Source: a virus. From it: a stretch of 37,398 bases of DNA. Of this stretch, positions 1 to 36,451 are shown in pieces. The notes below the pieces were generated by a model that made no database searches, was not told where the DNA came from, and saw only the letters and a list, made by a program, of their open reading frames with translations. The position numbers were made by a program, and so were the translations under genes. Location of the stretch: IMG/VR virus record IMGVR_UViG_3300034101_001444, positions 1 through 37,398 of that record. One strand, written 5' to 3'. Every line of letters starts with the position of its first letter. The first letter of the stretch is position 1.

Positions 1-119
1 GGGGAAGGCAAAAATGCTGCGGAAAACGATGTGCAATCATGCTCGCAGTTGAAGCGAGGAAGCGAACCCGCATTTCCGGGAATGGATTACGTCAGTCAGT
101 ACGGAAAGAAGAATCCTGA
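1..119 (+). CDS. HNH endonuclease C-terminus (5' partial)
   Basis: In the frame starting at base 3, the sequence encodes the last 38 residues of the same HNH protein found complete at 36452-36946, including the CCGKRC cysteine cluster, and stops at TGA 117-119. It is cut by the window edge. Because it lies wholly inside the 127-bp repeat, it cannot be told whether it is a second HNH gene or the same locus seen twice. Its last residues read the neighbouring PAFP gene out of frame. Confidence 0.6.
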   Translation, partial: GRQKCCGKRCAIMLAVEARKRTRISGNGLRQSVRKEES

Positions 120-127
120 AGGCATGA
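1..127. repeat. 127-bp exact repeat, left copy
   Basis: Bases 1-127 are identical to 36828-36954; the copies diverge at the next base (C at 128, G at 36955). The repeat holds the 3' end of an HNH endonuclease gene and the front of the PAFP/RDYFA gene that overlaps it. A length of exactly 127 at the very edge of the sequence equals a common largest de Bruijn k-mer, so the edge may be an assembly-graph branch rather than a biological end. Confidence 0.9.
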
Positions 128-300
128 CCCTGCGCGACTACTTCGCAGCGGCTGCCACTGAAAAAGACATTCAGGAGTTCATTCCTGCAACCAGAGGGGA
201 AGCCGCTGAGTTTCAACAACGACATGGATTCTCACCAAGTCGTCAGTGGGCGAGATATTGCCATGCCGACGCGATGCTCAAAGCGAGGGGGGACAAATGA
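1..300 (+). CDS. Small PAFP/RDYFA family protein (5' end uncertain)
   Basis: Member of a small phage family of unknown function, recognised by SEPAFPGMDY, then GMTLRDYFAAAA, and a C-terminal YCHADAMLKAR. The frame is open to the window edge. The first candidate start inside the window is GTG 31, giving 89 residues, but a start further left cannot be excluded. Compared with its relative at 36858-37082, the stretch between RDYFA and ADAMLKAR is replaced by an unrelated Gln/Glu-rich segment, so the two are mosaic. TGA 298-300 overlaps the ATG of the next gene (ATGA), the usual coupling in this array. Confidence 0.6.
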   Translation, partial: GEGKNAAENDVQSCSQLKRGSEPAFPGMDYVSQYGKKNPEGMTLRDYFAAAATEKDIQEFIPATRGEAAEFQQRHGFSPSRQWARYCHADAMLKARGDK

Positions 301-551
301 GCGATACACCGAGGACGGAAGCAGAGGTCAACAGACCGCATGGACCATTGGATGGTGTTGTGACTGTCGATGCCGACTTTGCTTGTATGTTAGAACGCGA
401 ACTCAACGCTGCTCAACAGCGCATCAAGCGGCTGGAGGAGGCGGGAAACAATCTGCTTTGGAATTTCTGCCCAGAGTACACATCTGATTTCACTGAATCT
501 CAGTCTGATGCTCTCAAGCAATGGAACAAAGCCAAGGAGGTGAAGCCGTGA
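297..551 (+). CDS. SDTPR coiled-coil cassette protein, copy 1
   Basis: 84 residues, unknown function. Begins MSDTPRTE, followed by a variable stretch (about residues 9-33), a heptad-like helix around LERELNAAQQRIKRLEEAG (about 34-52), an AGN turn and a tail ending QWNKAKEVKP. At least eight genes of this window share this plan. The ATG overlaps the preceding stop (ATGA). The AAGGAGG that would serve the next gene lies inside the codons for the KEVKP tail. I know the SDTPR family only as anonymous small phage proteins. A coiled-coil oligomer is a reasonable inference; no enzymatic motif is visible. Confidence 0.8.
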   Translation: MSDTPRTEAEVNRPHGPLDGVVTVDADFACMLERELNAAQQRIKRLEEAGNNLLWNFCPEYTSDFTESQSDALKQWNKAKEVKP

Positions 552-754
552 GAACCTCAACTGAAACACTAATCGCAGCCATGCACATATTGGCAACAGA
601 AATCCAATCCGAGGACGGAGCCGCTAATGCGGCAGTCGCGGAAGCAGGGGAGCGACTAGCGGAGCAGCATATGCGCATCGCCCAACTAGAGCAGGAGAAC
701 GACGCCATGCGAGCGGATCTGCTGCTGTGGGAGAATGGAGGGCCGTTGCCATGA
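548..754 (+). CDS. Small DGAANA-family helical protein, copy 1
   Basis: 68 residues from GTG 548, which overlaps the previous TGA (GTGA) and follows AAGGAGG at an 8-nt spacing. It contains AMHILATEIQSEDGAANAAVAEAGERL followed by a charged helix (EQHMRIAQLEQENDAMRADL), so it is probably all-helical with a short coiled coil. The gene at 4511-4756 carries the same L.ILSTEI.S.DGAANA..AEA.. block, so the window holds two divergent copies. Function unknown. Confidence 0.75.
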   Translation: MRTSTETLIAAMHILATEIQSEDGAANAAVAEAGERLAEQHMRIAQLEQENDAMRADLLLWENGGPLP

Positions 755-861
755 AGTATCCAAGCTACTGCTGCCAGAAGTGCGGAGAACTGATCGGTTG
801 GATCGGGCGATTCATGTTCCCGTTCTTGCACAAGTGTAGAAAGAAGGAGGCCAAGCTGTGA
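751..861 (+). CDS. 36-residue zinc-ribbon-like peptide
   Basis: Begins at ATG 751, which overlaps the preceding stop (ATGA), and ends at TGA 859-861. The peptide has CCQKCGELIGWIGR and then FLHKCRKKEAKL: a C-x2-C knuckle and a second His/Cys pair about 19 residues later, as in small zinc-binding phage peptides. Its C-terminus KKEAKL is encoded by AAGAAGGAGGCCAAGCTG, which is also the ribosome-binding site for the next gene. Function unknown. Confidence 0.75.
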   Translation: MKYPSYCCQKCGELIGWIGRFMFPFLHKCRKKEAKL

Positions 862-1055
862 GCATCACAATCAAATCGTGGATCGTGCCAGCACTCATCA
901 CCGTAATCCTGCTGTGCATCATGTTCAGGCCATACCGTTCCAGCGGGCAGTATGACTTTGGACAGATCTTCCGGCTGTTTTGGCTGATACCGATCGGAGC
1001 CGTTTGGATAATTTATATGGGAATTCTTTTAATTATTAAGGAGGCAAAGCCGTGA
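858..1055 (+). CDS. Small membrane protein, two predicted helices
   Basis: 65 residues from GTG 858, GTGA-coupled to the gene before it. There are two hydrophobic stretches, about residues 8-23 (IVPALITVILLCIMF) and 40-60 (FWLIPIGAVWIIYMGILLII), joined by a polar loop with RPYRSSGQYDFG. The tail is KEAKP, again the Shine-Dalgarno tail of the array. It could be an inner-membrane peptide. Holin activity is possible from size and topology alone, but the position far from the lysis genes does not favour it. Confidence 0.75.
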   Translation: MSITIKSWIVPALITVILLCIMFRPYRSSGQYDFGQIFRLFWLIPIGAVWIIYMGILLIIKEAKP

Positions 1056-1237
1056 AAGAGTTTTATGAATCAGTAGTCTACGGATTTTTCATTGGGTTTT
1101 TTATTCTTATAGGTTTTCTGTGCGGTGTACATCTTGGCAAGAACAGCATTAAAAAAGAAGCCGTAGAATATAATCATGCCGCATGGGTTGTGTCTGTAGA
1201 TGGGAAAACTACGTTCAAATGGAAGGAGGCGAAATGA
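1052..1237 (+). CDS. One-helix membrane protein with GKTxFKWKE tail, copy 1
   Basis: 61 residues from GTG 1052 (GTGA overlap). A hydrophobic segment at about residues 7-27 (VVYGFFIGFFILIGFLCGVHLG) is followed by KKEAVEYNHAAWVVSVDGKTTFKWKEAK. The gene at 1918-2106 has the same plan (membrane helix, KEEAVKKGHAELAV, GKTQFKWKE), so they are paralogues. The soluble tail with HA.wvv...GkTtFkWk is familiar from many phage small proteins of unknown role. The WKEAK codons carry GGAAGGAGG for the next ATG. Confidence 0.78.
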   Translation: MKEFYESVVYGFFIGFFILIGFLCGVHLGKNSIKKEAVEYNHAAWVVSVDGKTTFKWKEAK

Positions 1238-1503
1238 GCGATACACCGAGGATGGACTCCGCAGCAGGACACGCTCGCGGAATCGTTGATGCTGCGATTC
1301 TTGCCGAAGGCATAAAGCTGGAACGCGAACTCAACCGAGCGTGTGAGATGTACAGGAAACTTGATATTCACACACTCAATCTGGTTGATCGGATCAGTCG
1401 CTTGGAGAAGGCGGGTGATGCGATGGAACGACTCCTACCAGATGGCAGTATCTGCGACAAAGTAGCAAATCTGTGGCGCAAAGCCAAGGAGGCAAAGCTG
1501 TGA
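1234..1503 (+). CDS. SDTPR coiled-coil cassette protein, copy 2
   Basis: 89 residues. Opens MSDTPRMDSAAG; ERELN at about residue 31 is followed by a longer spacer than in its relatives, then the second helix DRISRLEKAGDAMERLL and the ending LWRKAKEAKL. The start sits eight bases after GGAAGGAGG and overlaps the preceding TGA. Its first 20 bases match those of the 297-551 gene almost exactly (ATGAGCGATACACCGAGGA), pointing to short-homology exchange between cassettes. Function unknown. Confidence 0.8.
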   Translation: MSDTPRMDSAAGHARGIVDAAILAEGIKLERELNRACEMYRKLDIHTLNLVDRISRLEKAGDAMERLLPDGSICDKVANLWRKAKEAKL

Positions 1504-1697
1504 AGTATAAACCACCTCAGCCGCAGTCGTATTCCGCCGAGACTGCCGCGTTGATAACTCAACTCAAAGACCGCATCAAAAAACTAGAGGACCGCATCAA
1601 GCGGCTGGAGGAAGCGGGGGATGCGCTAGCCAATACCCAGACCTACGACCTTTTGGAAACCGTAAACTGGCGCAAAGCCAAGGAGGCCAAGCCGTGA
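1500..1697 (+). CDS. Coiled-coil cassette protein without SDTPR head
   Basis: 65 residues from GTG 1500 (GTGA overlap). The head is replaced by a proline/glutamine-rich stretch (YKPPQPQSYSAETAAL), then an internally repeated helix, LKDRIKKLEDRIKRLEEAGDAL, and a tail NWRKAKEAKP. The last 108 bases are identical, bar one base, to the end of the gene at 2103-2366, so head and tail modules have been shuffled. Function unknown. Confidence 0.78.
   Translation: MKYKPPQPQSYSAETAALITQLKDRIKKLEDRIKRLEEAGDALANTQTYDLLETVNWRKAKEAKP
1590..1697 (+). repeat. 108-bp near-identical repeat, copy A
   Basis: Matches 2259-2366 base for base except A1613 versus G2282. It encodes DRIKRLEEAGDALANTQTYD and the rest of the tail to KAKEAKP plus stop. 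The match ends exactly at the stop codon, after which the two sequences are unrelated. Confidence 0.9.
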
Positions 1698-1921
1698 GTG
1701 ATACCCCGAGGATGGACCTTGCGCTTCGTAAGGCACAGGAAGATTGCACTGAATCATATCTATTAACTGAAGGCCTGAAACTAGAACGCGAACTCAACGC
1801 GGCCAATGAGCGCATCAAGCGGTTGGTTCAAGCTGGCGACTGCTTATTGAGCCATAGAAACAGTACCGATTATCACGAAAAAGTTAGAGAGTGGGATAAA
1901 GCGAAGAAGGACAAACCATGA
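1694..1921 (+). CDS. SDTPR coiled-coil cassette protein, copy 3
   Basis: 75 residues from GTG 1694, GTGA-coupled. Starts (M)SDTPRMDLALRKA; the helix runs KLERELNAANERIKRLVQAGD; the tail ends EWDKAKKDKP. The DNA for ERELNAA (GAACGCGAACTCAACGCGGCCAA) recurs in the copy at 37079-37300. Here the tail Shine-Dalgarno is AAGAAGGA, weaker than elsewhere. Unknown function; a coiled-coil oligomerisation role is inferred only. Confidence 0.8.
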   Translation: MSDTPRMDLALRKAQEDCTESYLLTEGLKLERELNAANERIKRLVQAGDCLLSHRNSTDYHEKVREWDKAKKDKP

Positions 1922-2106
1922 GCAGTTTTTTGAAACAGCACTTGTATCGAATAGTCGAATCAACACTTTTCTTCTTGGGCATTCTTTTTGGAGCTTACTT
2001 GGGTGAATCTGGAATGAAAGAAGAAGCCGTGAAGAAGGGCCATGCTGAATTGGCGGTCGATTGCGCTGGCAAAACTCAATTCAAATGGAAGGAGGTCAAG
2101 CCGTGA
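1918..2106 (+). CDS. One-helix membrane protein with GKTxFKWKE tail, copy 2
   Basis: 62 residues from ATG 1918, ATGA-coupled. The membrane segment is at about residues 11-29 (VESTLFFLGILFGAYLG), then KEEAVKKGHAELAVDCAGKTQFKWKEVKP. It is the paralogue of 1052-1237: the soluble tail is well conserved while the helix differs. The next gene starts at a GTG overlapping its stop and uses the GGAAGGAGG that encodes WKEV. Confidence 0.78.
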   Translation: MSSFLKQHLYRIVESTLFFLGILFGAYLGESGMKEEAVKKGHAELAVDCAGKTQFKWKEVKP

Positions 2107-2366
2107 GCGGAGTAAATATATCCATTTGTGATGGCAAGTATACTGTCATTCAAGCACCAACTGGCACAACCCGCGTCCTTCGCTATGGCGAGGAGTGGCG
2201 AGATGTCACTGGAGACAATGTGATTGGAGGTCTTGCGTGGGAGCTTCAAGAGGCGCGTGACCGCATCAAGCGGCTGGAGGAGGCGGGGGATGCGCTAGCC
2301 AATACCCAGACCTACGACCTTTTGGAAACCGTAAACTGGCGCAAAGCCAAGGAGGCCAAGCCGTGA
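2103..2366 (+). CDS. Cassette protein: beta-type head fused to coiled-coil tail
   Basis: 87 residues from GTG 2103. Residues 1-50 look like a small beta domain (VNISICDGKYTVIQAPTG, RVLRYGEEWRDV) unlike any other head in the array. From about residue 52 the protein is the common helix DRIKRLEEAGDAL and tail. Its final 108 bases duplicate those at 1590-1697 with one mismatch, so this is the clearest chimeric member. Function unknown. Confidence 0.78.
   Translation: MSGVNISICDGKYTVIQAPTGTTRVLRYGEEWRDVTGDNVIGGLAWELQEARDRIKRLEEAGDALANTQTYDLLETVNWRKAKEAKP
2259..2366 (+). repeat. 108-bp near-identical repeat, copy B
   Basis: Second copy of the tail module at 1590-1697, one mismatch, ending at the stop codon. 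Confidence 0.9.
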
Positions 2367-2617
2367 ACTGTCCATACTGCCATTCACCAAAGCGAACAGA
2401 GACGACCTATGAGTGCTGGAGACGCACTGATATGGACGAGTTTCAGCGGCCTGAGAAGTGTCTGCGTAACGAGATTGGATTGCTCAACGACCACATCAAG
2501 CTACTCAAGAGTTCTGGTAACGAGCTACTTGAGTGGCTGAAGGACGGTACTGTTTCCGACTCAAACTATCGTTTGCTTGCCAACGCATGGCAGCGAGCAA
2601 AGGAGAACAAGAGATGA
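2363..2617 (+). CDS. Cassette protein: zinc-knuckle head, helical tail
   Basis: 84 residues from GTG 2363 (GTGA). The head NCPYCHSPKRTETTYECW has CPYC and a later cysteine, a likely incomplete zinc knuckle. The rest follows the family plan in diverged form: NEIGLLNDHIKLLKSSGNELLEWL and ending AWQRAKENKR. The Shine-Dalgarno of the following ATG is the AAAGGAG in the KEN codons. Function unknown. Confidence 0.76.
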   Translation: MNCPYCHSPKRTETTYECWRRTDMDEFQRPEKCLRNEIGLLNDHIKLLKSSGNELLEWLKDGTVSDSNYRLLANAWQRAKENKR

Positions 2618-2910
2618 ACCCTCAATACGAAGCGCACGAACGCTTGTGCAAATCAATCGGAGACATGGCGAAGGAGAACGAAGATCTTAAGCAGCACGTC
2701 ACCGAACTCGAAAACCGTCTCCGCGCTTTGTGGGACAAGCTCGAAGGGGAGAGGAAGTTCTACGATCAGCGCATCCGAGAACTCGAAATAGCTGGCAACG
2801 CAATGTACACATTTATCAACCCTCCATCTCCGAGCATGAGGACCATCCGAATGGACAACCTGTTGCAAGGATGGGACGACGCTAAGATTGGGAAGGAGGT
2901 GAGGCCGTGA
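2614..2910 (+). CDS. Long coiled-coil cassette protein
   Basis: 98 residues from ATG 2614. Nearly the whole first two thirds is a heptad-rich helix (MAKENEDLKQHVTELENRL, then DQRIRELEIAGNAM). The AGN turn and a W..AK tail (GWDDAKIGKEVRP) mark it as a distant cassette member. It has no SDTPR head. Stop overlaps the next GTG. Function unknown. Confidence 0.76.
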   Translation: MNPQYEAHERLCKSIGDMAKENEDLKQHVTELENRLRALWDKLEGERKFYDQRIRELEIAGNAMYTFINPPSPSMRTIRMDNLLQGWDDAKIGKEVRP

Positions 2911-3122
2911 GCCATCTTGTTAACGCCAACAAAAAGGTCGTCAGCAAAACACCGCGCACAGACCGTCAGCCATACATCACGGCGGGATTCAATCAGTTCG
3001 TGAAGATCGGTTTCGCAAGACAACTGGAGCGGCAACTGGCTGGTGCGAACGAGAAGATAAAGAGGCTGGAACTACAGATCGACGAGCTTGGTGATCTGGT
3101 GAAATGGTTGGAGGGACGATGA
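2907..3122 (+). CDS. Cassette relative with internal SKTPRTD motif, no tail
   Basis: 71 residues from GTG 2907. Carries SKTPRTDRQ at about residue 13 rather than at the start, then ARQLERQLAGANEKIKRLEL and ends after DLVKWLEGR, so it lacks the AG[D/N] and W..AK tail. The Shine-Dalgarno for the next gene is GGAGGG inside WLEGR. Probably a degenerate or shortened member of the coiled-coil family. Confidence 0.72.
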   Translation: MSHLVNANKKVVSKTPRTDRQPYITAGFNQFVKIGFARQLERQLAGANEKIKRLELQIDELGDLVKWLEGR

Positions 3123-3337
3123 ACATCCCAATCGGACCAGCCGCATTCGTGTTCCGTCACAAGCGAACCGGCCAGATTGTCGTCGTACCCAACGAGCGAT
3201 GGCATGAGTTGTACGACAAGAAGGACGACTGGGAACACACGACCAGCCTGAACGCTTGCGGTGCTTTGCAGTACATGATCGACGCCAAACCGGCTGAGAG
3301 AAACCGATACATCAAGTCACTTACGGAACAGCCATGA
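3119..3337 (+). CDS. Small hypothetical protein
   Basis: 72 residues from ATG 3119, ATGA-coupled. Begins MNIPIGPAAFVFRHKRTGQI with VVVPNERWHELYDKKDDWE and ALQYMIDA. It looks like a compact alpha/beta protein; I do not recognise the family. It does not share the coiled-coil cassette plan. Its stop overlaps the ATG of the next SDTPR gene. Confidence 0.7.
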   Translation: MNIPIGPAAFVFRHKRTGQIVVVPNERWHELYDKKDDWEHTTSLNACGALQYMIDAKPAERNRYIKSLTEQP

Positions 3338-3615
3338 GCGATACCCCACGCACCGATGCCTACGTCGAGTTCTGGCTCAAAGATCGCCTCGCGCTCTGGC
3401 CCGACTTCGCTCGAAACCTGGAGCGTGAAATCAACCAACTGAAAAATGAGTACACTGGCAAGATTCGGATTGACCAAGGAGGCAATGGAGCGGATGGTGG
3501 GCGTCGTCAAGCCGTTCAAAGATCCGAGCCCTCGGATCGAGAGGCGGTGGCTGGCGATCCCGGACGAGATCAAGACCGCCATCCTCAAGGAGCATCACAC
3601 CTACACGCTCCGTGA
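3334..3615 (+). CDS. SDTPR cassette protein, copy 4, 3' end overwritten
   Basis: 93 codons. Residues 1-38 are a normal SDTPR head and helix (MSDTPRTDAYVEFWL, FARNLEREINQLKNE). After about residue 45 the reading is low-complexity (GGNGADGGRRQ, DRHPQGASHLHAP) and overlaps a helix-turn-helix gene in another frame that looks far more protein-like. The usual AG[D/N]..W..AK tail is missing. I infer a deletion joined the front of a cassette to the neighbouring gene. The product may still be made with a nonsense tail. Confidence 0.6.
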   Translation: MSDTPRTDAYVEFWLKDRLALWPDFARNLEREINQLKNEYTGKIRIDQGGNGADGGRRQAVQRSEPSDREAVAGDPGRDQDRHPQGASHLHAP

Positions 3616-3703
3616 ATTGTCGGCCAAATATAAGATCTCGATTTCATGCGTATGGTACATTCGCAAGAACAGCAAAACCAAAACCAAAACAAAGAAACGA
3701 TAG
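3446..3703 (+). CDS. Small helix-turn-helix protein
   Basis: Up to 85 residues. The last 45 residues, IPDEIKTAILKEHHTYTLRE then LSAKYKISISCVWYIRKNSK, resemble a Trp-repressor/resolvase-like HTH: a helix that loads onto DNA, L..KY.IS turn, then recognition helix, with a Lys/Thr-rich end. The start is uncertain: ATG 3446 has no Shine-Dalgarno, while ATG 3494 lies 11 bases after AAGGAGG (3476-3482) and ATG 3485 only two. Overlaps 3334-3615 in another frame. Likely a DNA-binding regulator of the early region. Confidence 0.65.
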   Translation: MSTLARFGLTKEAMERMVGVVKPFKDPSPRIERRWLAIPDEIKTAILKEHHTYTLRELSAKYKISISCVWYIRKNSKTKTKTKKR

Positions 3704-3843
3704 AGGAACTACAACGATGGAAACAGTTATGTCACGAGTTAGCCGCTTGCTTGGGCTGCGGCTGCACAGTTCAGACCGGTCTGTGCGTGCAGTGCCACAA
3801 AGCGAACAAACGCTACCGAGCAACCCAACTCCCGCTCCGGTAG
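3646..3843 (+). CDS. Nested zinc-ribbon protein
   Basis: 65 residues, or 63 from the second ATG at 3652. A Gln/Asn-rich front is followed by ELQRWKQLCHELAACLGCGC and TVQTGLCVQCHKANKRYR, a convincing C-x2-C-x(n)-C-x2-C zinc ribbon. It overlaps the end of the HTH gene at 3446-3703 and the front of the HTH gene at 3717-4250, each in a different frame. The cysteine pattern is too regular to be chance, so I favour a real nested gene. Function unknown. Confidence 0.6.
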   Translation: MRMVHSQEQQNQNQNKETIEELQRWKQLCHELAACLGCGCTVQTGLCVQCHKANKRYRATQLPLR

Positions 3844-4250
3844 TCACAGCACCCACGAAGAAGAAACGTAAACCAAAAGTGAAACTAACAGAATCAATCG
3901 AGAAGGTCACCGAACTCCGTAAGCAAGGTCTCACCTACCAAGTCATCGGTGATACCCTCAAGATGTCCAAGCAACGCGTTCATCAGGTCCTCAAAGCTCA
4001 CAATAGGCAGGAGGAATCCAAGAACCTGTGGACCAACGGACTCAGCGTTCGCAATACCAAGCTGATGACTCAGCTCAAGGTCAACAACCCCGTGACACTC
4101 ATCACAATGATCAAGTCCGGGGACGTTCGACCGTTCAAGTACAAGAACTTCGGTCTGCGAAGTTACCACGATCTCTGTGCGTGGGCTGGGATTCAGCCAA
4201 TCGAATTCCGTAAAATCAAAACCTGTCCGCACTGCAACAAGTTAATATGA
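3717..4250 (+). CDS. HTH protein with C-terminal zinc knuckle
   Basis: 177 residues from ATG 3717, which has GAGGA ten bases upstream. The first 45 residues overlap the zinc-ribbon frame and look unstructured; then comes a Lys-rich linker (KKKRKPKVKL) and an HTH, ELRKQGLTYQVIGDTLKMSK with QRVHQVL, of the sigma-factor region 4/resolvase type. A second helical domain follows, and the end is KTCPHCNKLI, half a zinc knuckle. GTG 3879 is an alternative start that avoids the overlap. Probable DNA-binding regulator. Confidence 0.65.
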   Translation: METVMSRVSRLLGLRLHSSDRSVRAVPQSEQTLPSNPTPAPVVTAPTKKKRKPKVKLTESIEKVTELRKQGLTYQVIGDTLKMSKQRVHQVLKAHNRQEESKNLWTNGLSVRNTKLMTQLKVNNPVTLITMIKSGDVRPFKYKNFGLRSYHDLCAWAGIQPIEFRKIKTCPHCNKLI

Positions 4251-4507
4251 CCAGACATTCGTTTCCATTAGTGGAATCGATCAAGGTGGTCCGTCTCTCC
4301 GAGGGGCGGACCATCCGCGTTTTAAGGGATCGAACCAAAGACAACCTCAAGGTCATCCACGGAGATGGAGACATCCACCTCACCTGCGTAGCACAAGCCC
4401 ATGACCCCATCGAGATGCTGAAGACACTGGCCAAGCTGGAAGACGTTCGGTCAGTGGAACTCACCGATGCAAAGGGAAATGGAATCATCATCCACAAACA
4501 AATCTGA
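4247..4507 (+). CDS. Small hypothetical protein
   Basis: 86 residues, ATGA-coupled to the HTH gene. Beta-rich pattern (IKVVRLSEGRTIRVLRD, LKVIHGDGDIHLTCVA) with a short helix EMLKTLAKLEDVRSVEL. I do not recognise it. Its place between a DNA-binding gene and the DGAANA gene suggests it belongs to the same early operon. Confidence 0.7.
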   Translation: MTRHSFPLVESIKVVRLSEGRTIRVLRDRTKDNLKVIHGDGDIHLTCVAQAHDPIEMLKTLAKLEDVRSVELTDAKGNGIIIHKQI

Positions 4508-4510
4508 TCC

Positions 4511-4756
4511 ATGCACAAGTCCTCAACACACGACATCGTTAACGCACTCAACATCCTTTCCACCGAGATCTGCTCCGTCGATGGAGCAGCCAACGCTCTA
4601 TGCGCCGAGGCGTCAGCTCGCATCCTGGAACTCGTCACCATCACAAAGGATCTGACAGCACACATCGTTTCCAATCCGGTGCATCACCCAAAGTGTAACG
4701 CCGCAACCAAAGGCAACTATTGCAACTGTATGTTGGCCAAACTATCGCACCCATGA
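4511..4756 (+). CDS. Small DGAANA-family protein, copy 2, with Cys/His tail
   Basis: 81 residues. The front, VNALNILSTEICSVDGAANA followed by LCAEASARILEL, is the same block as in 548-754. The back half differs: HHPKCNAATKGNYCNC, a possible metal-binding His/Cys cluster, replaces the coiled coil of the first copy. Starts four bases after the previous stop and overlaps the next ATG (ATGA). Function unknown. Confidence 0.74.
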   Translation: MHKSSTHDIVNALNILSTEICSVDGAANALCAEASARILELVTITKDLTAHIVSNPVHHPKCNAATKGNYCNCMLAKLSHP

Positions 4757-5052
4757 AGACTCCACGACACGAGCAGCCTTGGTACGAAGCACGGTTGGAA
4801 AACAACAAGAAGCCGTCCAAGATCACCGAAGAAGAACGAACCATACTCACCGAGGAGAATCGCAAGCTCATCGAGGATGCGCCACGGATCATCTCGTGGG
4901 GAGTCGCCAACGGATGGATCGCTTATCCAATAAAGGAACAACGTAAATGGAAGATGCAAGAACTTGGTTCGTCAACCGAACCAACCCAGCAATCATCGTC
5001 GAACTCATCGGATGCGCTCAGTACCGTCTGGCCGAACTCCGAACTCCAGTAG
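4753..5052 (+). CDS. Small hypothetical protein
   Basis: 99 residues from ATG 4753 (ATGA). The first two thirds (HEQPWYEARLENNKKPSKIT, then EEERTILTEENRKLIEDAPR) looks like a charged helical protein with a W-containing segment IISWGVANGWIAYP. The Ser/Gln-rich last 30 residues overlap the better-looking gene at 4947-5135 in another frame and may be read-through. Function unknown. Confidence 0.62.
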   Translation: MKTPRHEQPWYEARLENNKKPSKITEEERTILTEENRKLIEDAPRIISWGVANGWIAYPIKEQRKWKMQELGSSTEPTQQSSSNSSDALSTVWPNSELQ

Positions 5053-5135
5053 TCATATATCGCCGGGGCGACAATCTATACGTTCGCCTCGAATCTGAAT
5101 TCCACTCCAAGTTCGTAATAACAAGCAGGCCATAG
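4947..5135 (+). CDS. Small conserved-type phage protein (VELIGCAQ family)
   Basis: 62 residues from ATG 4947, nested in the 3' end of the preceding gene. It reads TWFVNRTNPAIIVELIGCAQ, then YRLAELRTPVVIYRRGDNLY and VRLESEFHSKF: an alpha-beta-beta pattern I recognise as a recurring small phage protein of unknown function. The strong pattern in this frame shows that the neighbour's C-terminus is the less reliable reading. A 34-bp gap separates it from the primase-helicase. Confidence 0.68.
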   Translation: MEDARTWFVNRTNPAIIVELIGCAQYRLAELRTPVVIYRRGDNLYVRLESEFHSKFVITSRP

Positions 5136-5169
5136 CCTCCGCAGTCCAACTCAGCAACGAATCAACGAC

Positions 5170-6948
5170 ATGACAACGCTCGAACGAGCGGCTCTTTGGC
5201 TTGCCAAAGTACCGCCAGCCGTCTCAGGACAGAACGGCCATTCAACCACCTACACCGCCGCCGTGGGCCTTGTACACGGCTTCCAGCTAGGATACGGGGA
5301 CGCAATGACCCTGCTGTCCGAATGGAACCTATCCTGCCAGCCACCATGGTCCGACAAGGATCTGGCCCACAAACTCCGTGAAGCAGCCTCCCGGAGCCAC
5401 GACAAACCCGCTGGCCACTTGATCCAAAGCACCAGCGCGGGCATGGACCTCTCGCGTGTGACCTTCAAGCGGCCTACTCCCACGGTTCCACCAGCCCCCG
5501 GAGCCTCGGAGTTCCAACGCTTCCTCCAGTCCGCCTTCGCACCCACCGAGGTGGTCTGCATTTGCGAACAGGTCGAGGACGGAAAGCCAATGACCTCCGG
5601 GTCTTTCCTGCCCATCGAGGATTGGATCGCCCGCTTCGATGACCCCGAATCCATCCTGTTCCGCAGCGACCGCACCGATGGGGTGTTCGTCCGCATCAAC
5701 CCCTTCCGGCCCAGCCTCTACAGCGGATCGGACAACGATGTCAGCGCGTACCGTCATGTCCTGGTGGAGTTCGATGACAAGCCCAAGGCCGAGCAGGAAC
5801 AGCTCCTCCGCTCCTCTGGCCTACCCATCAGCGTACTCATCGATTCCGGTGGCAAGTCGATCCACGCATGGGTCCGGGTGGATGCCCCCAATCGCAAGGA
5901 GTGGGATGCCCGCAGGGATCTGATCTACAGCAGCATCCCCGGCGTCGATCCCAAGAACAAGAATCCATCGCGCTTCTCCCGGCTCCCCGGAGCATGGCGC
6001 GGAGATCAGAAGCAGAAGTTGTTGGCCAACAACCTGGGTGCGAACTCATGGGAAGAATGGCTCACCAACCGGGAGACCGATGAGGACCAGTCCACCATCG
6101 TCACGGTCAAAGACCTCATGGACTTTGATCCAAAGAAAGATCCCGATAACCTGATCGGTAATCGATGGCTCACTCGCGGCTCCAGCATGATCATCAGCGG
6201 TGGCACCGGCATTGGGAAGTCATCACTGATGATGCAGATCATCATCAGGTGGTGCCTCGGTATCGACTTCTTCGGCATCAAACCGGTGAAGCCATTGAAG
6301 ATCGGAGTCATTCAAGCAGAGAACGACAAGGGCGATCTCGCGGAAGCGTTCCGAGGGGTGACACATACCATGCGCCTCATCGGAGATCAGATGCGCCACC
6401 TCAACACCAACCTAGAGTTCCGCACCGAGACAGTTCGTACCGGTGAACAGTTCCTCGCCTACGCCCGACGCTTCATCCACCGATCCAAGCTGGATCTCAT
6501 AGTGGCAGACCCCCTGTTCTCCTACTTCGGAGGAGATCTCAGTGATCAGTCCGAGGTAAGCGTGTTCCTCCGCAACAAGCTCCAACCCATCCTGCACGAG
6601 ACCAAGGTCGCTTGGATCTGGATGCATCATGTCTCTAAGCCTCAGCGCAAAGAGAACGGAGAACCACTCACCACTATGGAACTCGCCCACGCCGGATTCG
6701 GCTCCTCCGAACTCGCCAACTGGGCGCGGGAGATAGCGGTTCTCCATGAAGTAGGCCAATTCAAGCCTAGAAGGTTTCAGCTCGCCTTCTGCAAGCGGGG
6801 ATCAAGGCTTGGACTCGAATCCCCCATCCTCAACGTACAGCACTCAGCCACCGGGATTCAGTGGGAAGAGTGCAACCCATTCGCGTTCACTGGGGCGGAA
6901 CTGAAGGAGAAGAAGCCGTATCGCCCTCAGCGAGGGCGGAGAGCATAG
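5170..6948 (+). CDS. AEP-type primase fused to RecA-fold helicase
   Basis: 592 residues, the only large replication protein. Residues about 1-75 resemble a primase C-terminal-type helical domain (ALWLAKVPPAVSGQNGHSTT.., WSDKDLAHKLREA). An archaeo-eukaryotic primase core follows: VEFDD at 199-203, SGGKSIH at 226-232 and RFSRLPG at 268-274, matching the metal-binding, SxH and nucleotide-binding motifs. The C-terminal third is a RecA/RepA-like ATPase with Walker A GGTGIGKS (344-351) and Walker B DLIVADP (442-448), ending in MHHVSKP. It would unwind and prime the phage origin; no phage DNA polymerase is seen, so elongation would be by the host. No clear Shine-Dalgarno. Its 3' end overlaps the convergent gene by 62 bp. 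Confidence 0.85.
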   Translation: MTTLERAALWLAKVPPAVSGQNGHSTTYTAAVGLVHGFQLGYGDAMTLLSEWNLSCQPPWSDKDLAHKLREAASRSHDKPAGHLIQSTSAGMDLSRVTFKRPTPTVPPAPGASEFQRFLQSAFAPTEVVCICEQVEDGKPMTSGSFLPIEDWIARFDDPESILFRSDRTDGVFVRINPFRPSLYSGSDNDVSAYRHVLVEFDDKPKAEQEQLLRSSGLPISVLIDSGGKSIHAWVRVDAPNRKEWDARRDLIYSSIPGVDPKNKNPSRFSRLPGAWRGDQKQKLLANNLGANSWEEWLTNRETDEDQSTIVTVKDLMDFDPKKDPDNLIGNRWLTRGSSMIISGGTGIGKSSLMMQIIIRWCLGIDFFGIKPVKPLKIGVIQAENDKGDLAEAFRGVTHTMRLIGDQMRHLNTNLEFRTETVRTGEQFLAYARRFIHRSKLDLIVADPLFSYFGGDLSDQSEVSVFLRNKLQPILHETKVAWIWMHHVSKPQRKENGEPLTTMELAHAGFGSSELANWAREIAVLHEVGQFKPRRFQLAFCKRGSRLGLESPILNVQHSATGIQWEECNPFAFTGAELKEKKPYRPQRGRRA

Positions 6949-7528
6949 AATCCCTCCACTTCTCGTCCTCAATTATAGCACGGGCCTTCTGCATAGCCTT
7001 GCGGGCTTCAGAGGCCCTTTTCTCTGCCTCCACGACCTCGGGATCAATGTCGGGTTCAGGCTCCGGCTCCGGCTCCTCATCCCCACCGCGCTTGCTCGAA
7101 CGCTTCCTTTCGAGTTGGCCAATGAGTCGTTCATGCTTCTTCACCGAGGTCTTCAGATACGCAACATCACGCTTCAGGTCATTGACCATCCTCAAGAGCA
7201 ACGACACCCGATCCTCATCCTCCGGTGGAACCCAGTCACAACCACGCCACTGCCTATGAACCATGTCATAAACTATGACCTGGGACTTCTTGTTCCTCAT
7301 GGAATTGAAAGCCCGGATCGCCCGACCCAACTCACAGGCAAGATTCTTTCGGATGTAGGCCAGTACCTCGGACTTGTCCGGGTCGGCATCGTGGCGTTGC
7401 GGGGGCATCAGTCGGAACATCGACCGAAGCGTGGAACCATTGTCGAGATAACTCATAGCAAGAACAGAATGCATCGTGTAGGCTTCCGCGTCAATGTAAA
7501 GGAATGTTGATTTTGCATCCCACCCCAC
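6887..7528 (-). CDS. Coiled-coil protein with acidic PE-rich linker
   Basis: 213 residues on the - strand from GTG 7528. Residues 1-110 are an unrecognised globular region with DKSEVLAYIRKNLACELGRA. A heptad helix follows (LLLRMVNDLKRDVAYLKTSV, KKHERLIGQLERKR), then the acidic linker EPEPEPEPDIDPEVVEAEKR and a final charged helix. No Shine-Dalgarno precedes the GTG. It runs convergently into the primase gene. It may bind replication proteins or nucleic acid, but nothing in the sequence proves this. Confidence 0.7.
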   Translation of the reverse strand: MGWDAKSTFLYIDAEAYTMHSVLAMSYLDNGSTLRSMFRLMPPQRHDADPDKSEVLAYIRKNLACELGRAIRAFNSMRNKKSQVIVYDMVHRQWRGCDWVPPEDEDRVSLLLRMVNDLKRDVAYLKTSVKKHERLIGQLERKRSSKRGGDEEPEPEPEPDIDPEVVEAEKRASEARKAMQKARAIIEDEKWRDSMLSALAEGDTASSPSVPPQ

Positions 7529-7551
7529 AAAGTTAGCATCCCCCCTGCTAC

Positions 7552-7593
7552 TCTCCCTTAGAGGGAGACTTACACTCCCTCTAATAAGGGAGT
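7552..7593. other. Two adjacent CTCCCT/AGGGAG stem-loops
   Basis: TCTCCCT (7552-7558) pairs with AGGGAGA (7562-7568) over a 3-nt loop, and ACTCCCT (7574-7580) pairs with AGGGAGT (7587-7593) over CTAATA. The two hairpins share their core and lie just upstream of the reverse-strand gene start (7528) and just left of the large terminator-like stem. Confidence 0.6.
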
Positions 7594-7594
7594 T

Positions 7595-7656
7595 AAAAAC
7601 CGCAAACGCCGCGACGCTCTGGGGGACTGACGCCCCCCGCTGCGGCTGCGGTTTTT
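7595..7656. terminator. Bidirectional terminator / structured element
   Basis: AAAAACCGC (7595-7603) pairs with GCGGTTTTT (7648-7656). Inside are GCCGC (7608-7612) with GCGGC (7642-7646) and GGGGG (7621-7625) with CCCCC (7633-7637). The outer stem gives a GC stem followed by a T-run on both strands, so it can end transcription from either side. It lies between the primase operon and the reverse-strand operon. The branched interior is larger than an ordinary terminator and could be a small structured RNA. Confidence 0.65.
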
Positions 7657-8114
7657 CGAAACCCTCCCACTGATTGCGAAGTATCGGGTTGGATGGAGGA
7701 TGGAGGATGTGGATTGCTGGAGCGGGAAGGGGCCTAGGATCGCGTTTGATTGCTGGATGGTGTGTGGGGAGCGGAATGGGGGTATCGTCGCTTAGAACAG
7801 GACTGCTTGGATTGGCCTACTCGACCGCACCATGATTCCGGATTTCCCGATTTCCGATTCTGGATTTCCGAATTCCGAATTCCGTATGGCGTATGGAGAA
7901 TCCCGAATACCGCACCATGATACCGCATGATCCCGAAACAGATTTCGGGATGATACCGGCGGGGTCGCAGGGGATGTAACGGGGTGGGACATGGGATGTC
8001 TTACCTTGGAGTGCTATGTAAATAACCTGGCGAAGGTTAGGGGGGCACGAAGGAAGGGATGGCCTACTAAGGAAGGGGAAAGCGGGCGGGCGGGCGACAC
8101 TATCGGGGCAAAGG
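7657..8114. other. Gene-poor region with short degenerate repeats
   Basis: I see no convincing gene here. It contains GGATGGAGGATGGAGGATG (about 7692-7710), a run of degenerate TTTCCGA/AATTCCG units (about 7837-7885), and CCGCACCATGAT twice (7825-7836 and 7910-7921), each followed by TCCG or ACCG. Two copies of the TGGCCTACT motif fall at 7813 and 8060. It is the longest non-coding stretch in the window and lies beside the primase-helicase, so a replication origin is a fair but unproven guess. Confidence 0.5.
7930..7951. other. Perfect 9-bp stem-loop
   Basis: ATCCCGAAA (7930-7938) and TTTCGGGAT (7943-7951) with a CAGA loop. It has no T-run, so it is not a classic terminator. It follows the CCGCACCATGAT repeat and may belong to the same origin-like region. 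Confidence 0.6.
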
Positions 8115-8142
8115 AAAACCCCGTAGGGGTGAGCCTACGGGG
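8115..8142 (-). terminator. Intrinsic terminator of the reverse-strand operon
   Basis: CCCCGTAGG (8119-8127) pairs with CCTACGGGG (8134-8142) over GGTGAG. On the - strand the stem is followed by TTTTCC, a classic factor-independent terminator, placed 19 bases past the end of the last gene of the operon. Confidence 0.8.
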
Positions 8143-8160
8143 CGTGGCGATTGGCTTGGA

Positions 8161-8250
8161 TTAGTTACCGGCGAGGGCCGATAGAATGAGAAGCAGAGTG
8201 AAAAGGAGGCAAAGCCCAAGGTAACCTAGGACTCGAAGGAGGGGTTTCAA
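8161..8250 (-). CDS. 29-residue membrane micro-protein (TTG start)
   Basis: Start TTG 8250-8248 overlaps the stop of the gene before it (TTGA), with GGGAGG seven bases upstream. The product has a basic end (MKPLLR) and one uninterrupted hydrophobic helix (VLGYLGLCLLFTLLLILSAL), ending AGN. Shine-Dalgarno, coupled overlap, membrane composition and the terminator 19 bases downstream together support a real gene. Function unknown; a membrane regulator, exclusion peptide or toxin-like peptide are all possible. Confidence 0.6.
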   Translation of the reverse strand: MKPLLRVLGYLGLCLLFTLLLILSALAGN

Positions 8251-8492
8251 AGTGCGGCCTCCCAATTCTCCTCCATCCATCGATGGATTGTTTCGACTGT
8301 CTCGTCGCAGTCGCAGTGGACACCGCATCCCCTTGGGTTTTGGACACGCTCAAACCGGAGTTCCACGAACTCATTGAAACGGTATTCTATCATCTCTTCG
8401 AGGTTGTCCAAGATTCGGGACACGTCACGGGCAGTCGCGGAACTTCCCCAATAGGACGGCTCCGTCGGGAGTTGGATTAGGACGGTATTCAT
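8247..8492 (-). CDS. Small hypothetical protein of reverse-strand operon
   Basis: 81 residues from ATG 8492, four bases after the previous stop. Begins MNTVLIQLPTEPSYWGSS, then a helix TARDVSRILDNLEEMIEYRF, NEFVELRFERV, and GCGVHCDCDETVETIHRWME with a Cys/His cluster. It may bind metal through C-x3-C-x-C. A longer reading upstream of 8492 only overlaps the preceding gene and is not supported. Function unknown. Confidence 0.7.
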   Translation of the reverse strand: MNTVLIQLPTEPSYWGSSATARDVSRILDNLEEMIEYRFNEFVELRFERVQNPRGCGVHCDCDETVETIHRWMEENWEAAL

Positions 8493-8496
8493 GTGT

Positions 8497-8823
8497 TCAA
8501 AAGGACTGGATGACCACACCTCCGGTGAATTCGACGACTTGCGTGTGATCGCGGAGCCACTCCAAAGCCTCAGGCTCGCAGTCCGTGTCATCACCGCATA
8601 CTTCCCCGAAACCGTACTCCTTAGCAGCCGCAAGCGCGGAAGGGTATTCGACCCACTCACAGCAAATCCCGACGGGATCAAGTTCCAACTCCACTCCGCA
8701 GTCTTCCTCGTAAGATTCAAGGTAATCGAAGAGAGCGAAAAGAGCGGGGCGGCTGAATTGGGTTTCCCTCCCGCATAGGCGGAAGGATTCGACGAACTGG
8801 TAACTGGTAACTGTGGTTTTCAT
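8497..8823 (-). CDS. Small conserved-type protein (MKTTVT..F family)
   Basis: 108 residues from ATG 8823; GTG 8880 would add 19 residues and neither has a good Shine-Dalgarno. Sequence MKTTVTSYQFVESFRLCGRE, FSRPALFALFDYLESYEEDC, then ELDPVGICCEWVEYPSALAA and an acidic end. I recognise the front (MKT.VT...F...F...GR...FS..AL..LFDYLE) as a recurring phage protein of unknown function. Its place in a separately controlled reverse-strand operon suggests an accessory role. Confidence 0.7.
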   Translation of the reverse strand: MKTTVTSYQFVESFRLCGRETQFSRPALFALFDYLESYEEDCGVELELDPVGICCEWVEYPSALAAAKEYGFGEVCGDDTDCEPEALEWLRDHTQVVEFTGGVVIQSF

Positions 8824-8891
8824 GTTGTTGAATCGGGCATCGATTGCCCGCCAGATGCCACGCGGTTTCCCACATGACACCGGACGGGGAA

Positions 8892-9512
8892 TCAGTGCGC
8901 GTCAATTGCCCTACCCTGACGGGCTAAGTCGAAACAATCGAACCGCTTGAACATGTCCGCGAACCGTTCCCATTGCCATTCGGACGGAGGACGGACCGGC
9001 TCAAGTTCCCCGGACTCGGAAACCACGCACAGAACCGGAGTCACGCGGATAGATGATATGAGGACTTGGGATTCGACGTTAAACGCGAAATCCGGACACC
9101 AGTGGCCGAGTGGCCCGCCAATGGTTCCCATAGTTTGAGTTGTCTCGAATCCCGCACCGATCGAATCGAGAAACTTGAAAGCGGTTTCCCGATCGAAAAG
9201 TCCGGACATTTGAACGTCCGAGATACATGCCCAAAAAGCTTCACGCGGGAACTTTTCCTGTAGCTTGCGGCAGATTTGAAAGCGGGTTTCCCCGCGCACA
9301 TCGTCCAAGCGGTTCAAGATTTCACGAGGGATTGAACCTTCCTTTGCAAGGTAACTGTATTCCGAGTCAAAAGGTTCCGATGGTTCGACCGGAAGTCCCG
9401 GCCAAGCTTTCAGGACATCCGGCAAGGTAGTCTCGCAGGGATGCCACTCGCACAAGTCCGGATGCTCTCCAGAGAAGCTGGCGACGATTGAGAAGCCGAG
9501 GCGGTATTTCAA
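8892..9512 (-). CDS. Hypothetical protein, TTG start
   Basis: 206 residues from TTG 9512-9510, chosen because GGGAGG lies six bases upstream and the TTG overlaps the stop of the 36-residue gene before it (TTGA). It starts (M)KYRLGFSIVASFSGEHPDL and contains WHPCETTLPDVLKAWPGLP, FPREAFWACISDVQMSGLFD and a C-terminal WERFADMFKRFDCFDLARQG. It is a globular alpha/beta protein I cannot assign. As the largest gene of the reverse-strand module it is the best candidate for the module's active component. Confidence 0.7.
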   Translation of the reverse strand: MKYRLGFSIVASFSGEHPDLCEWHPCETTLPDVLKAWPGLPVEPSEPFDSEYSYLAKEGSIPREILNRLDDVRGETRFQICRKLQEKFPREAFWACISDVQMSGLFDRETAFKFLDSIGAGFETTQTMGTIGGPLGHWCPDFAFNVESQVLISSIRVTPVLCVVSESGELEPVRPPSEWQWERFADMFKRFDCFDLARQGRAIDAH

Positions 9513-9619
9513 TTTACACCTCCCATCAAAGCTTCGGCGAGGAGCCAAAGGATCGGGAGGAGGAGAGCGTTCAACGCAAGGAAGGCGAGGAACGCGCGGA
9601 GTTTATGGGATTTTTTCAT
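9509..9619 (-). CDS. 36-residue membrane micro-protein
   Basis: ATG 9619-9617 to TGA 9511-9509. A basic front (MKKSHKLR) and one hydrophobic helix (FLAFLALNALLLPILWLLAE) end in MGGVN. The GGAGGT codons near its end are the Shine-Dalgarno of the next gene, whose TTG overlaps this stop. No Shine-Dalgarno of its own is evident. Positive-inside topology would put the C-terminus outside the membrane. Too short for ordinary gene callers; function unknown. Confidence 0.6.
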   Translation of the reverse strand: MKKSHKLRAFLAFLALNALLLPILWLLAEALMGGVN

Positions 9620-9639
9620 GGTGTTTTGAGGTAGGGAAA

Positions 9640-9946: not shown

Positions 9947-10420
9947 ATGGCGAAGGCGGTTTCAAAAATTCAAAAAATCGAAAACCTGGCGATCAATTCA
10001 GGGGTCGGACATGCAATGTCTGAGGGGGGTGAGAAAGAAAAGCGGAAGGTTGGGAGGCCGCAGAAAGTTGTTCCCGTGGAGCAACTAAAAAAAGCTATCG
10101 AAGCTTGCAAGCTAGGGATTCCATTGGAGCGGGTAGCAATCCTTGCGGGATTCCCAAGCGGGAACGCTGGTGGATGGGCGGACTATTTGAAGCGTAACCC
10201 TGACTTTGCTAATGAGCTTGAGCTTGCAAGGTTGGAGGGAGAACTAGAACTCTCCTCCGTCGTTCGCCAGTGCGGCAACGGTTGGCAAGGTTCCGCTTGG
10301 TTACTTGAAAGAACCCGTGGATATGTTGCTAGGGCTTCACTAGAACATACTGGTAAAGGTGGTAAAGAATTGTCAATTAGCGGTAGTCTGCTTGGTGCAT
10401 TCGGTGGACAGTCTAAATAG
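9947..10420 (+). CDS. terS: Terminase small subunit-like DNA-binding protein
   Basis: 157 residues from ATG 9947, or 134 from ATG 10016. The first start has GGGAGG only one base away, so 10016 (MSEGGEKEKRKVGRP) is a real alternative. The core is KRKVGRPQKVVPVEQLKKAI, an HTH around IPLERVAILAGFP, then YLKRNPDFANELELAR and WQGSAWLLERTRGYV. The VGRP front, NPxFA and SAWLLER motifs are typical of phage small terminases. It would bind the packaging site and load the large subunit encoded 111 bases downstream. Confidence 0.72.
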   Translation: MAKAVSKIQKIENLAINSGVGHAMSEGGEKEKRKVGRPQKVVPVEQLKKAIEACKLGIPLERVAILAGFPSGNAGGWADYLKRNPDFANELELARLEGELELSSVVRQCGNGWQGSAWLLERTRGYVARASLEHTGKGGKELSISGSLLGAFGGQSK

Positions 10421-10531
10421 GATAGCGTATACGAATAGCGAGCTATAGCAATAGGACCACGGGGGAGGGGGACCACCCAGGTGGGGGGTGGATGTCACCT
10501 TATACCCCCTCTCCCTCCCACAACCAATTTT
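10421..10531. other. G-rich terS-terL intergenic region, possible packaging site
   Basis: 111 bases without a gene. Contains the palindrome CGTATACG (10426-10433), G-runs from about 10459 to 10490 (GGGGGAGGGGG, then GGTGGGGGGTGG), and a C-rich stretch CCCCCTCTCCCTCCC (10505-10519) that could pair back on them. A G-quadruplex or large hairpin is possible. Packaging sites often lie near terS, so this is a candidate pac/cos, but no direct evidence is visible. Confidence 0.4.
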
Positions 10532-12073
10532 ATGGCAGTCAAGCAAATTAAGAAAAAGAAATCCTCTTCACTCGGCATGGGTTCGCATATCCCTGCTTGG
10601 AAGCAGCGTAAGCTATTGGAGGAGGCTCAGCAGTTGCAGAACTTCCCTAAGATGATGCTTGGCCTGCGTGATACCTATGCGTGGCAGGAGAAGGTGTTGG
10701 GAGCTTTGAATGAGAAGCACTCGAAGGTAGCTTTGAAAGCGGCGAATGGTTCTGGCAAGACGAGTATGGTAGCCGCGAGTGCGGTGATCTGGCACATGCT
10801 CCGCTGGCCGGGGAGCTTGGTGGTATGTACCGCTGGTGTATATCGACAGGTGGCCGACGCTCTGTGGCCCCATCTGCGAAAGATGATCAATGGGTTGGGG
10901 GGAGAGGAGAATGGTTTCTCGATCAAGGATGGCGAGATCCGCTATGTATATCCGAAGAAAGTGGATGGTCAGGAGTTGGTGAGCCGGTGTATCGGGTTCT
11001 CGGCGAGTAATCCTGAGAAGGCGGAGGGCTGGCATGTACAGGGTCCGAGTGGGGATTTGATGTATATTGTGGACGAGGCGAAGGCGGTGCCGGACGGGAT
11101 CTTCCAGTCGATGGAGCGGTGCCAGCCTACGCGGACGTTGCTAATGAGCAGTCCTGGTGGTAGCTCCGGGTATTTCTACGATGTATTCAGGCGGAATGAT
11201 GGTAAGTGGCAGACCTTTACCGTTACCGCGTTTGATTGCCCGCATATTCGGAAGGAGTGGATCGATGATCAGTTTGCGAGATGGGGCGAGGGCCATCCGC
11301 TGGTTCGGTCGATGATTTACGCGGAGTTCATGGAGGATGACGGGAGCCTCACGGCGGTCAAAACCTCCGACTGGCAGAAGGTTGTTTCTGGCCCACCCAA
11401 GGAGGAGCTGGAAGGGCACCGGCTGACGGCGGGTTGTGATTTCAGCGCGGGCGGGGATGAGAGCGTGATGGTGGTGCGTCAGGGTAACACGGTGAAGGGA
11501 CTGGTCCGCTGGAGGGATAAGGACACGATGGCCAGCGTGGGTAGGTTCATATCGGAGTTCAGGAAGTGGAAGCTGAAGGCTGAGGATATTTATGCGGATG
11601 TGGGTGGAATGGGTGTGGTGATGTGTGATGCGCTGAGGGCGGAGGGTTGGGATGTGCGGCGGGTGAACTTTGGTGAGCGGGCCATCCGGGATGATCAGTT
11701 CGTGAATCGGGCGGCGGAGATGTGGATTGAGTTCGGGCGGATGGTGGAGGAGGGTAAGGTGAATCTGGGACCGGTGGGGACGGATGAGGTGCTGTTGCAG
11801 CAGTTCGTGAGCCGGAAGGTGCGGACGAATGGGAAGGGGAAGCTGACGCTGGAGGGTAAGGATGAGCTGCGGGCGCGTGGTGTGAATAGTCCTGATCGGG
11901 CGGATGCGGTGGTACTGGCTTTCTGTGGTGGTGGTGGGAAGCGGATGGATGAGTATTTGAGGGCGGTGAACGAGGATGGGCGGAGTTTGATGGAGAGGTT
12001 GGAGGATGAGATTGGCCCACTAGAGCATAGCGAAAAAGGGGTTGCGCTTGCTGGATGTGATGTTGGGGGGTAG
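10532..12073 (+). CDS. terL: Terminase large subunit (ATPase-nuclease)
   Basis: 513 residues from ATG 10532; readings further upstream are proline-rich junk. The packaging ATPase has Walker A NGSGKT (72-77) and Walker B YIVDEA (178-183), then SSPGGSSGYFYD as the coupling motif. The nuclease has the expected acidic residues: GCDFSAGGDES (D303), ADVGG (D356) and DRADAVVLAF (D455/D458). It translocates DNA into the procapsid through the portal encoded next. Translation starts after TTTT-ATG without a strong Shine-Dalgarno, as in several late genes here. Confidence 0.9.
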   Translation: MAVKQIKKKKSSSLGMGSHIPAWKQRKLLEEAQQLQNFPKMMLGLRDTYAWQEKVLGALNEKHSKVALKAANGSGKTSMVAASAVIWHMLRWPGSLVVCTAGVYRQVADALWPHLRKMINGLGGEENGFSIKDGEIRYVYPKKVDGQELVSRCIGFSASNPEKAEGWHVQGPSGDLMYIVDEAKAVPDGIFQSMERCQPTRTLLMSSPGGSSGYFYDVFRRNDGKWQTFTVTAFDCPHIRKEWIDDQFARWGEGHPLVRSMIYAEFMEDDGSLTAVKTSDWQKVVSGPPKEELEGHRLTAGCDFSAGGDESVMVVRQGNTVKGLVRWRDKDTMASVGRFISEFRKWKLKAEDIYADVGGMGVVMCDALRAEGWDVRRVNFGERAIRDDQFVNRAAEMWIEFGRMVEEGKVNLGPVGTDEVLLQQFVSRKVRTNGKGKLTLEGKDELRARGVNSPDRADAVVLAFCGGGGKRMDEYLRAVNEDGRSLMERLEDEIGPLEHSEKGVALAGCDVGG

Positions 12074-32460: not shown

Positions 32461-33242
32461 ATGCAATAGCAACGACAACGCAACAGACCGACTCTGGCGA
32501 AATGTACGCCAAGATCGGTGACCCCATCACCGCCATCGAGAAGATGGGCGAGTGGATCGCAGCCAGCGGAATGCTGGGATGCACCAAGGTCGAACAGGGA
32601 AAACTCATCGCGTGGCAATGCGCCGCCGAGAAGAAGACCCCGTTCGATTTCAAGAGAGAGTATCACATCATCAATGGCTCACTCTCCATGAGGAGCGATG
32701 CCATGTTGGCCGGTTACCGCGCCCGTGGCGGCAAGGTTCTATGGAAGCAGTTCGATAGCCGCGCCGCCATCGCACTCTGGACCTATGACGGCAATTCCTG
32801 TGAGATCGGGTTCTCGGTCGAGGATGCGAAACTCGCTCAGCTCCTCCCCGCCAAGCCGGGTTCCGGGTGGGCCAAAGATCCGGGTGCAATGCTCCGCGCT
32901 CGATGCATCTCCAAAGCCATCCGCATGCTGGCACCTGAAGTGGTGGCCGGTATCTACACGCCGGAAGAGACCGAAGACTTCCAGCCCGCAGTCACCGAAG
33001 TGGCTGCGGCTCCCACCAAGAGCTTCGACATCACCGCAAAGCTCGAAGCCCTGTTCGAGGATCGCGAGGAAGATGTGAACGCCCTGCTGCTCAAAGCCGG
33101 TCGAATCAAGGATGGTCAGACTTTCCGTGATCTGGATGACTCCATCGCCTCCAAGTACATCGCCAAGCCTGACCTGATCCTGAGCAAGCTGCCGGTGATC
33201 GTCAGCCCTGAAATCGTTGCCACGGAGGTGTCCAATGGCTGA
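32457..33242 (+). CDS. RecT-like single-strand annealing protein
   Basis: 261 residues from ATG 32457. GCTKVEQGKLIAWQCAAEKK, FDFKREYHIINGSLSMRSDA, MLAGYRARGGKVLWK; FSVEDAKLAQLLPAKPGSGW, then AMLRARCISKAIRMLAPEVV and AGIYTPEETED. The yhii-G--sM-sDAmLA phrase, the FS-eDAk-A segment and the MLRAR-iS-aiR---P----GiYTpeE phrase match the RecT-like annealing proteins I know from phages. The exonuclease overlapping it downstream supports this. It would anneal strands resected by that exonuclease. Confidence 0.7.
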   Translation: MNAIATTTQQTDSGEMYAKIGDPITAIEKMGEWIAASGMLGCTKVEQGKLIAWQCAAEKKTPFDFKREYHIINGSLSMRSDAMLAGYRARGGKVLWKQFDSRAAIALWTYDGNSCEIGFSVEDAKLAQLLPAKPGSGWAKDPGAMLRARCISKAIRMLAPEVVAGIYTPEETEDFQPAVTEVAAAPTKSFDITAKLEALFEDREEDVNALLLKAGRIKDGQTFRDLDDSIASKYIAKPDLILSKLPVIVSPEIVATEVSNG

Positions 33243-34497: not shown

Positions 34498-34501
34498 TGA
34501 T

Positions 34502-36434: not shown

Positions 36435-36451
36435 TTTGCCACAGTGAGCGC
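36418..36451 (+). promoter_or_regulatory. Putative promoter of the HNH gene
   Basis: TTGACT (36418-36423), 16-base spacer, CACAGT (36440-36445, a poor -10), then six bases to GTG 36452. The layout copies the one at 32252-32287. Low confidence because the -10 is weak. Confidence 0.35.

Follow-up and report, generated by a model that had tools for sequence, protein, structure and literature searches.

The window, the whole stretch of 37,398 nucleotides that was analyzed, is an IMG/VR virus record of an uncultured phage. Positions 1–127 are repeated exactly at 36828–36954 on the same strand, and the two copies part at the next base, with C at 128 and G at 36955, as the first-pass annotation had described. 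The length of the match excludes chance, and imperfect similarity extends to positions 150 and 36977 (97% over 150 nt), which makes the two continuations allelic forms of a single small gene, the PAFP gene. Both copies (plus strand) consist of the final 69 nt of an insertion carrying an HNH gene and the initial 58 nt of the 3′ part of the PAFP gene. The repeat sits within two overlapping coding frames; the right copy, which has its full context, lies 444 bases from the contig end.

In relatives without the HNH insertion, the PAFP gene is intact (MS..INDGGPAFP...). In the window it is cut at GGP^AFP, with the 5′ part at 36378–36410, the 486-nt insert at 36411–36896 (plus strand) and the AFP codons directly afterward. 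The empty PAFP site has the sequence CCAATCAACGACGGAGGACCGGCGTTTCC, and in G022, G026 and G029 the point of insertion reads CCAATCAACGACGGAGGACCG^GC(G/A)TTTCC, the exact edges being ambiguous by a base or two. The 5′ remnant (36378–36434, plus strand) encodes MSEQPINDGGP|FSVDSAV*; in L141 and L142 this part stays open until it overlaps the start of the HNH gene by GTGA, and in the window and most other contigs it stops earlier. The insertion encodes a predicted HNH endonuclease of 164 amino acids (36452–36946, plus strand), which matched Pfam HNH_3 above the cut-off (E = 1.9e-9) and whose stop falls within the 3′ part of the split gene; a search of solved structures with the HNH sequence returned nothing useful. 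The nuclease domain and the empty site in relatives are both marks of an HNH homing gene.

A ribosome site, AAAAGGAG, and an ATG lie within the HNH gene (36755–36770, plus strand), and the 3′ part of the PAFP gene would restart at this ATG, at 36768. Read from the proposed start, allele B encodes 104 amino acids (36768–37082, plus strand; also present in G002 and G004) and is followed by an SDTPR-type gene (37079–37300, plus strand). Allele A occupies 128–300 (plus strand) and, on the ring map presented below, continues from 36954 to give a 119-amino-acid open reading frame (36768–36954 joined to 128–300), followed by an SDTPR gene at 297–551. The earlier statement that a PAFP gene and next an SDTPR gene follow on each branch was thus correct. 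L141 has this insert fused in frame to another PAFP allele. Where the HNH and PAFP frames overlap, L141 differs from the window in four places; read in the HNH frame, three of these changes are silent, and read in the PAFP frame, none is, so HNH is the constrained frame; selection on the N-terminal extension of PAFP is not supported by this comparison.

The HNH-split PAFP cassette stands at the head of an array, in which 14 small genes (297–3337, plus strand) are joined by exact 4-nt overlaps (ATGA or GTGA), with the ribosome site of each in the last codons of the preceding gene. The longest chain of such overlaps was 14 in the array, compared with 1 elsewhere in the window and at most 2 in 300 shuffles. 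The consensus of 653 joints has a G-rich ribosome site (GGAGG) at −12 to −8, followed by (A/G)TGA, and one exact joint form recurs in at least 120 viral contigs. The commonest last residues of array genes are KEAKP and KEAKL; the KEAKP end, AAG GAG GCx AAG CCx TGA, doubles as the ribosome site and start of the next gene. ATGA overlaps in general are established to couple translation by termination-reinitiation (PMC6728339), and translation of the chained genes would be coupled across their overlaps.

Immediately upstream of the array is a gene for a Holliday junction resolvase-like protein (35774–36229, plus strand), and downstream is a primase/helicase gene (5170–6948, plus strand). No Pfam family above cut-off was obtained for ten of the array proteins, and a search of 50,697 phage records with a representative array protein gave no match. 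As they are small, variable and adjoin replication genes, our guess is that they serve in host takeover or counter-defense. One single-gene cassette (MSITIKSW..., 844–1055, plus strand) is 98.6% identical in G001 and about 92–93% identical in other DnaB-type phages.

Several further observations concern the array and the host. Positions 1590–1697 and 2259–2366, which lie in two different array genes, are 99% identical over 108 nt; the proteins share this C-terminal module and have different N-termini, which suggests exchange of gene parts besides whole cassettes. A protein resembling flavin-dependent thymidylate synthase, judged by eye, is encoded upstream of the array in G003 and G007 (L007, L102), upstream of HNH, and also inside the chain of L229. 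The 8.2-kb contig L213 carries the joint pattern in opposite orientation near both ends (124–147 and 8070–8093), reflecting either inverted arrays or an assembly artifact. One bacterial genome contig (L262, 7431–7454; JAIBBQ010000075.1), assigned to a Myxococcaceae metagenome-assembled genome, also contains the exact joint; this is perhaps a binned phage contig and gives a weak hint of the host at best. Minus-strand frames at 7734–7992 of the window read as repetitive peptides (TPYGIRNSEIQNRKSGNPES). They resemble an intergenic repeat of other bacteria and could hint at the host.

The ends of 289 related IMG/VR loci were compared with the interiors of all others. The commonest exact end-match length was 127 (24 distinct ends among 285 with an inner exact match), compared with a mean of 2.3 ends for each of the other lengths between 100 and 160; part of the locus ends were tool-made cuts and not contig ends, which could only dilute the peak at 127. 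JGI assemblies probably use k = 127. The exact 127-mer is present in nine other IMG/VR contigs, all of which carry the same preceding 12 bases, ACCCAAACCATA, as at 36816–36827; none has other sequence to the left of base 1, the outcome that the first-pass annotation had set against its own reading. After the 127-mer, seven of the nine continue into allele A (CCCTGCG or CCATGCG) and two into allele B (GCATTCG). The repeat is a k = 127 assembly-graph node with one predecessor and two successors, and both the modal length and these neighbors bear out the graph branch that had been proposed earlier. An assembler would fork here because diverse arrays are joined to a near-identical HNH cassette. 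Two further viral contigs end within the HNH gene (L143 at its 3′ end and L144 at its 5′ end), as expected if common HNH cassettes break assemblies. End repeats of assembler k-mer length are known from metagenomic contigs (PMC8008677).

The join between the HNH region and allele A is crossed without a break by three independent contigs (L009/G005, L010/G006 and L013/G009), the sequence of close relatives passing directly from 36977 to 150–308. The order in L010 corresponds to window positions 34478–36977 followed by 1–308, 420–730, 3330–7732, 7847–9620 and 10087–11968, with 94–99% identity except in one stretch. Four other relatives have matching contig ends, of 121 nt (G033), 123 nt (G043), 588 nt (G057) and 40 nt (G032), although the 121-nt and 123-nt matches may be assembler k-mer overlaps themselves. 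In the window, the end sequence recurs exactly at the other end, inset from it by the 444 nt. Because relatives cross the join and four others have matching ends, a genome map in the form of a ring of 36,827 bp with allele A is supported, in agreement with the circular genome with alternative cassettes that was one of two options offered previously. The record would then comprise one turn of the ring with allele A and, leading out of the node, 444 bases of allele B as a second continuation. The repeat itself is a technical joint, and its use is in showing that the record amounts essentially to a complete map of a phage genome.

Contigs with different and unrelated backbones share the block between the ribosome site at 36368 and at least 36977 at about 97–99% identity over about 610 nt, a third mark of a homing gene, namely recent horizontal spread together with its flanks. 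The HNH protein is 100% identical in G001, G003, G004, G007 and G008, and in G001, G003, G007 and G008, of which G003 and G007 are partial contigs, the portal, capsid, primase and resolvase proteins of the window have no relatives that could be detected. G001 encodes a lambda-type terminase, a lambda-type portal, a ClpP-type head protease and a DnaB helicase; the portal of the window is SU10-type. Different upstream flanks all meet the cassette at the same ribosome-site/ATGAGC edge. Judged from these alignments, the HNH gene is mobile, and its cassette is common, at about 99% identity, to phages with unrelated virion genes. It probably spreads by homing into intact PAFP genes, with flanking sequence copied along. 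No cultured relatives of the window end were found by DNA, and the capsid has only 22–27% identity with cultured relatives.

Exchange of array genes was assessed by comparing 80 fetched relatives of the G001 helicase with the phage group of the window. Many of the 80 contain chains of such genes, of up to 15 genes; in those long loci that were checked, the chains lie on the upstream side of the helicase gene. Between the groups, 117 blocks of at least 100 nt with at least 90% identity are shared, 111 of them in or near arrays. For a non-redundant set of breakpoints between unrelated phage groups, a breakpoint was scored as at a joint when it fell from −20 to +12 of the joint start codon; 41% of 233 did so, whereas 13% was expected and none of 500 random sets exceeded 19% (0/500 as high as observed). 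The count is inflated by the tendency of alignments to end just past conserved joints. Gene-by-gene exchange appears on these data more firmly established than the position of strand crossing. Cassettes also vary among close relatives of the window (G005, G006 and G017).

A gene end that carries the next ribosome site would let cassettes follow one another with translation kept. The joints are also short repeated sequences, at which the encoded RecT-like annealing protein (32478–33242, plus strand), exonuclease VIII-like nuclease (DUF3799; 33235–34011, plus strand) and Holliday junction resolvase could swap cassettes, and such swaps would happen between co-infecting phages.

Because the repeat belongs to the tail of a mobile HNH insertion, a point missed by the first-pass annotation, allele B may come from a different phage in the same sample. 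The record would then be the ring with a chimeric tail from a phage bearing the same HNH cassette, a reading we consider evenly balanced. It is favored by the occurrence of the exact 127-mer in phages with unrelated backbones, by B-type continuations in G002, whose backbone is about 75–86% identical, and in G004, and by the last 122 nt of B, which are 97% identical in G047 and in the DnaB-type contigs L287 and L290; against it, the variation of cassettes among the close relatives named above makes variation within the same species equally possible. Chimeric contigs can arise from shared cassettes of more than 127 nt, although the pattern is repeated across many samples. The other option previously raised, two HNH-linked arrays in one genome with the contig linear between them, accounts for the presence of both continuations in the contig as recorded. 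It was rejected as most improbable, since a single HNH block was present in each of the nine relatives and two in none, the genomes examined have one array each (between resolvase and primase in the group of the window), and the join is bridged directly in relatives.

A true terminal repeat of packaged phage DNA would fit the matching ends of some relatives, but the repeat has the modal end-match length of the data set, lies in coding sequence and is not terminal on the right, and the homology there is the HNH insertion, which is missing from relatives such as G033 and G043; this explanation was rejected as scarcely credible. The remaining alternative treats the insertion as a self-splicing intron that carries an HNH gene and is spliced out to restore PAFP. 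Group I introns need a T ending the 5′ part and a G ending the insert. Both are absent here, the HNH frame continues across the 3′ junction, and no Rfam match to a conserved group I or group II ribozyme was obtained up to E = 1 in 36200–37398. Although HNH genes are described as often lying within phage introns (PMC3428280), and the 5′ and 3′ parts flanking the 486 nt match intact PAFP genes, splicing was rejected as very unlikely on the missing Rfam match and the wrong splice-site bases.

The node, the ring, the insertion with its empty sites, the horizontal sharing and the chained genes all emerge from comparison of sequences, and we hold it to be very probable that the whole locus is explained by a k = 127 node, a ring with an allele B tail and an HNH-split PAFP cassette that opens an exchangeable array. 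We propose more tentatively, as a possibility that falls a little short of even, that phages with unrelated virions share one cassette pool without an integrase, in which the joint would be both translation signal and recombination joint and HNH genes would ride in the cassettes and help spread them. The wider interest lies in rows of small genes exchanged gene by gene among phages with unrelated capsids, whose joints would preserve the translation of all genes once a swap has occurred. As the joint occurs in so many contigs and no match was found among the phage records searched, cultured-phage databases may lack a source of phage accessory genes that is common in the environment. Metagenomic virus assemblies would also be systematically broken, and possibly chimerized, by such arrays.

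Circular metagenomic phage contigs with k-mer-length end repeats resemble the window in that their end repeat is a technical overlap as long as the assembler's k (PMC8008677); in the present case, sequence extends 444 nt beyond the closing node into an alternative branch, and the contig ends do not match each other. A nuclease gene that splits a phage gene is already known from mobE in nrdA, and the free-standing HNH homing endonucleases of this type (T4 mobA and Aeh1 mobE in nrdA) share with the present case an HNH gene within a coding gene, two coding pieces and empty sites in relatives (PMC2988022). In the window, by contrast, the interrupted gene is one of the small accessory genes of a variable array, the ribosome site and start of its 3′ piece lie within the nuclease gene, and the nuclease gene travels with the whole cassette between unrelated phages. 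HEG islands likewise contain a nuclease gene and flanking DNA more than 90% identical between otherwise dissimilar phages; those islands are 10 kb long and carry essential genes (PMC10448857), whereas the present block is about 0.6 kb, includes one split gene and has its edges at ribosome-site/start joints. No match was found in the literature to a cassette array with joints coded in the gene ends and common to unrelated phages, which is weak evidence that it is new. The array behaves as a row of interchangeable one-gene cassettes, as do integron gene cassettes. In a search of the window for inverted repeats of at least 30 nt, none was seen that could be attC-like, and no integrase is implicated by the window proteins that were scanned; the proposed joint, in contrast to that of integrons, is the translation signal itself.
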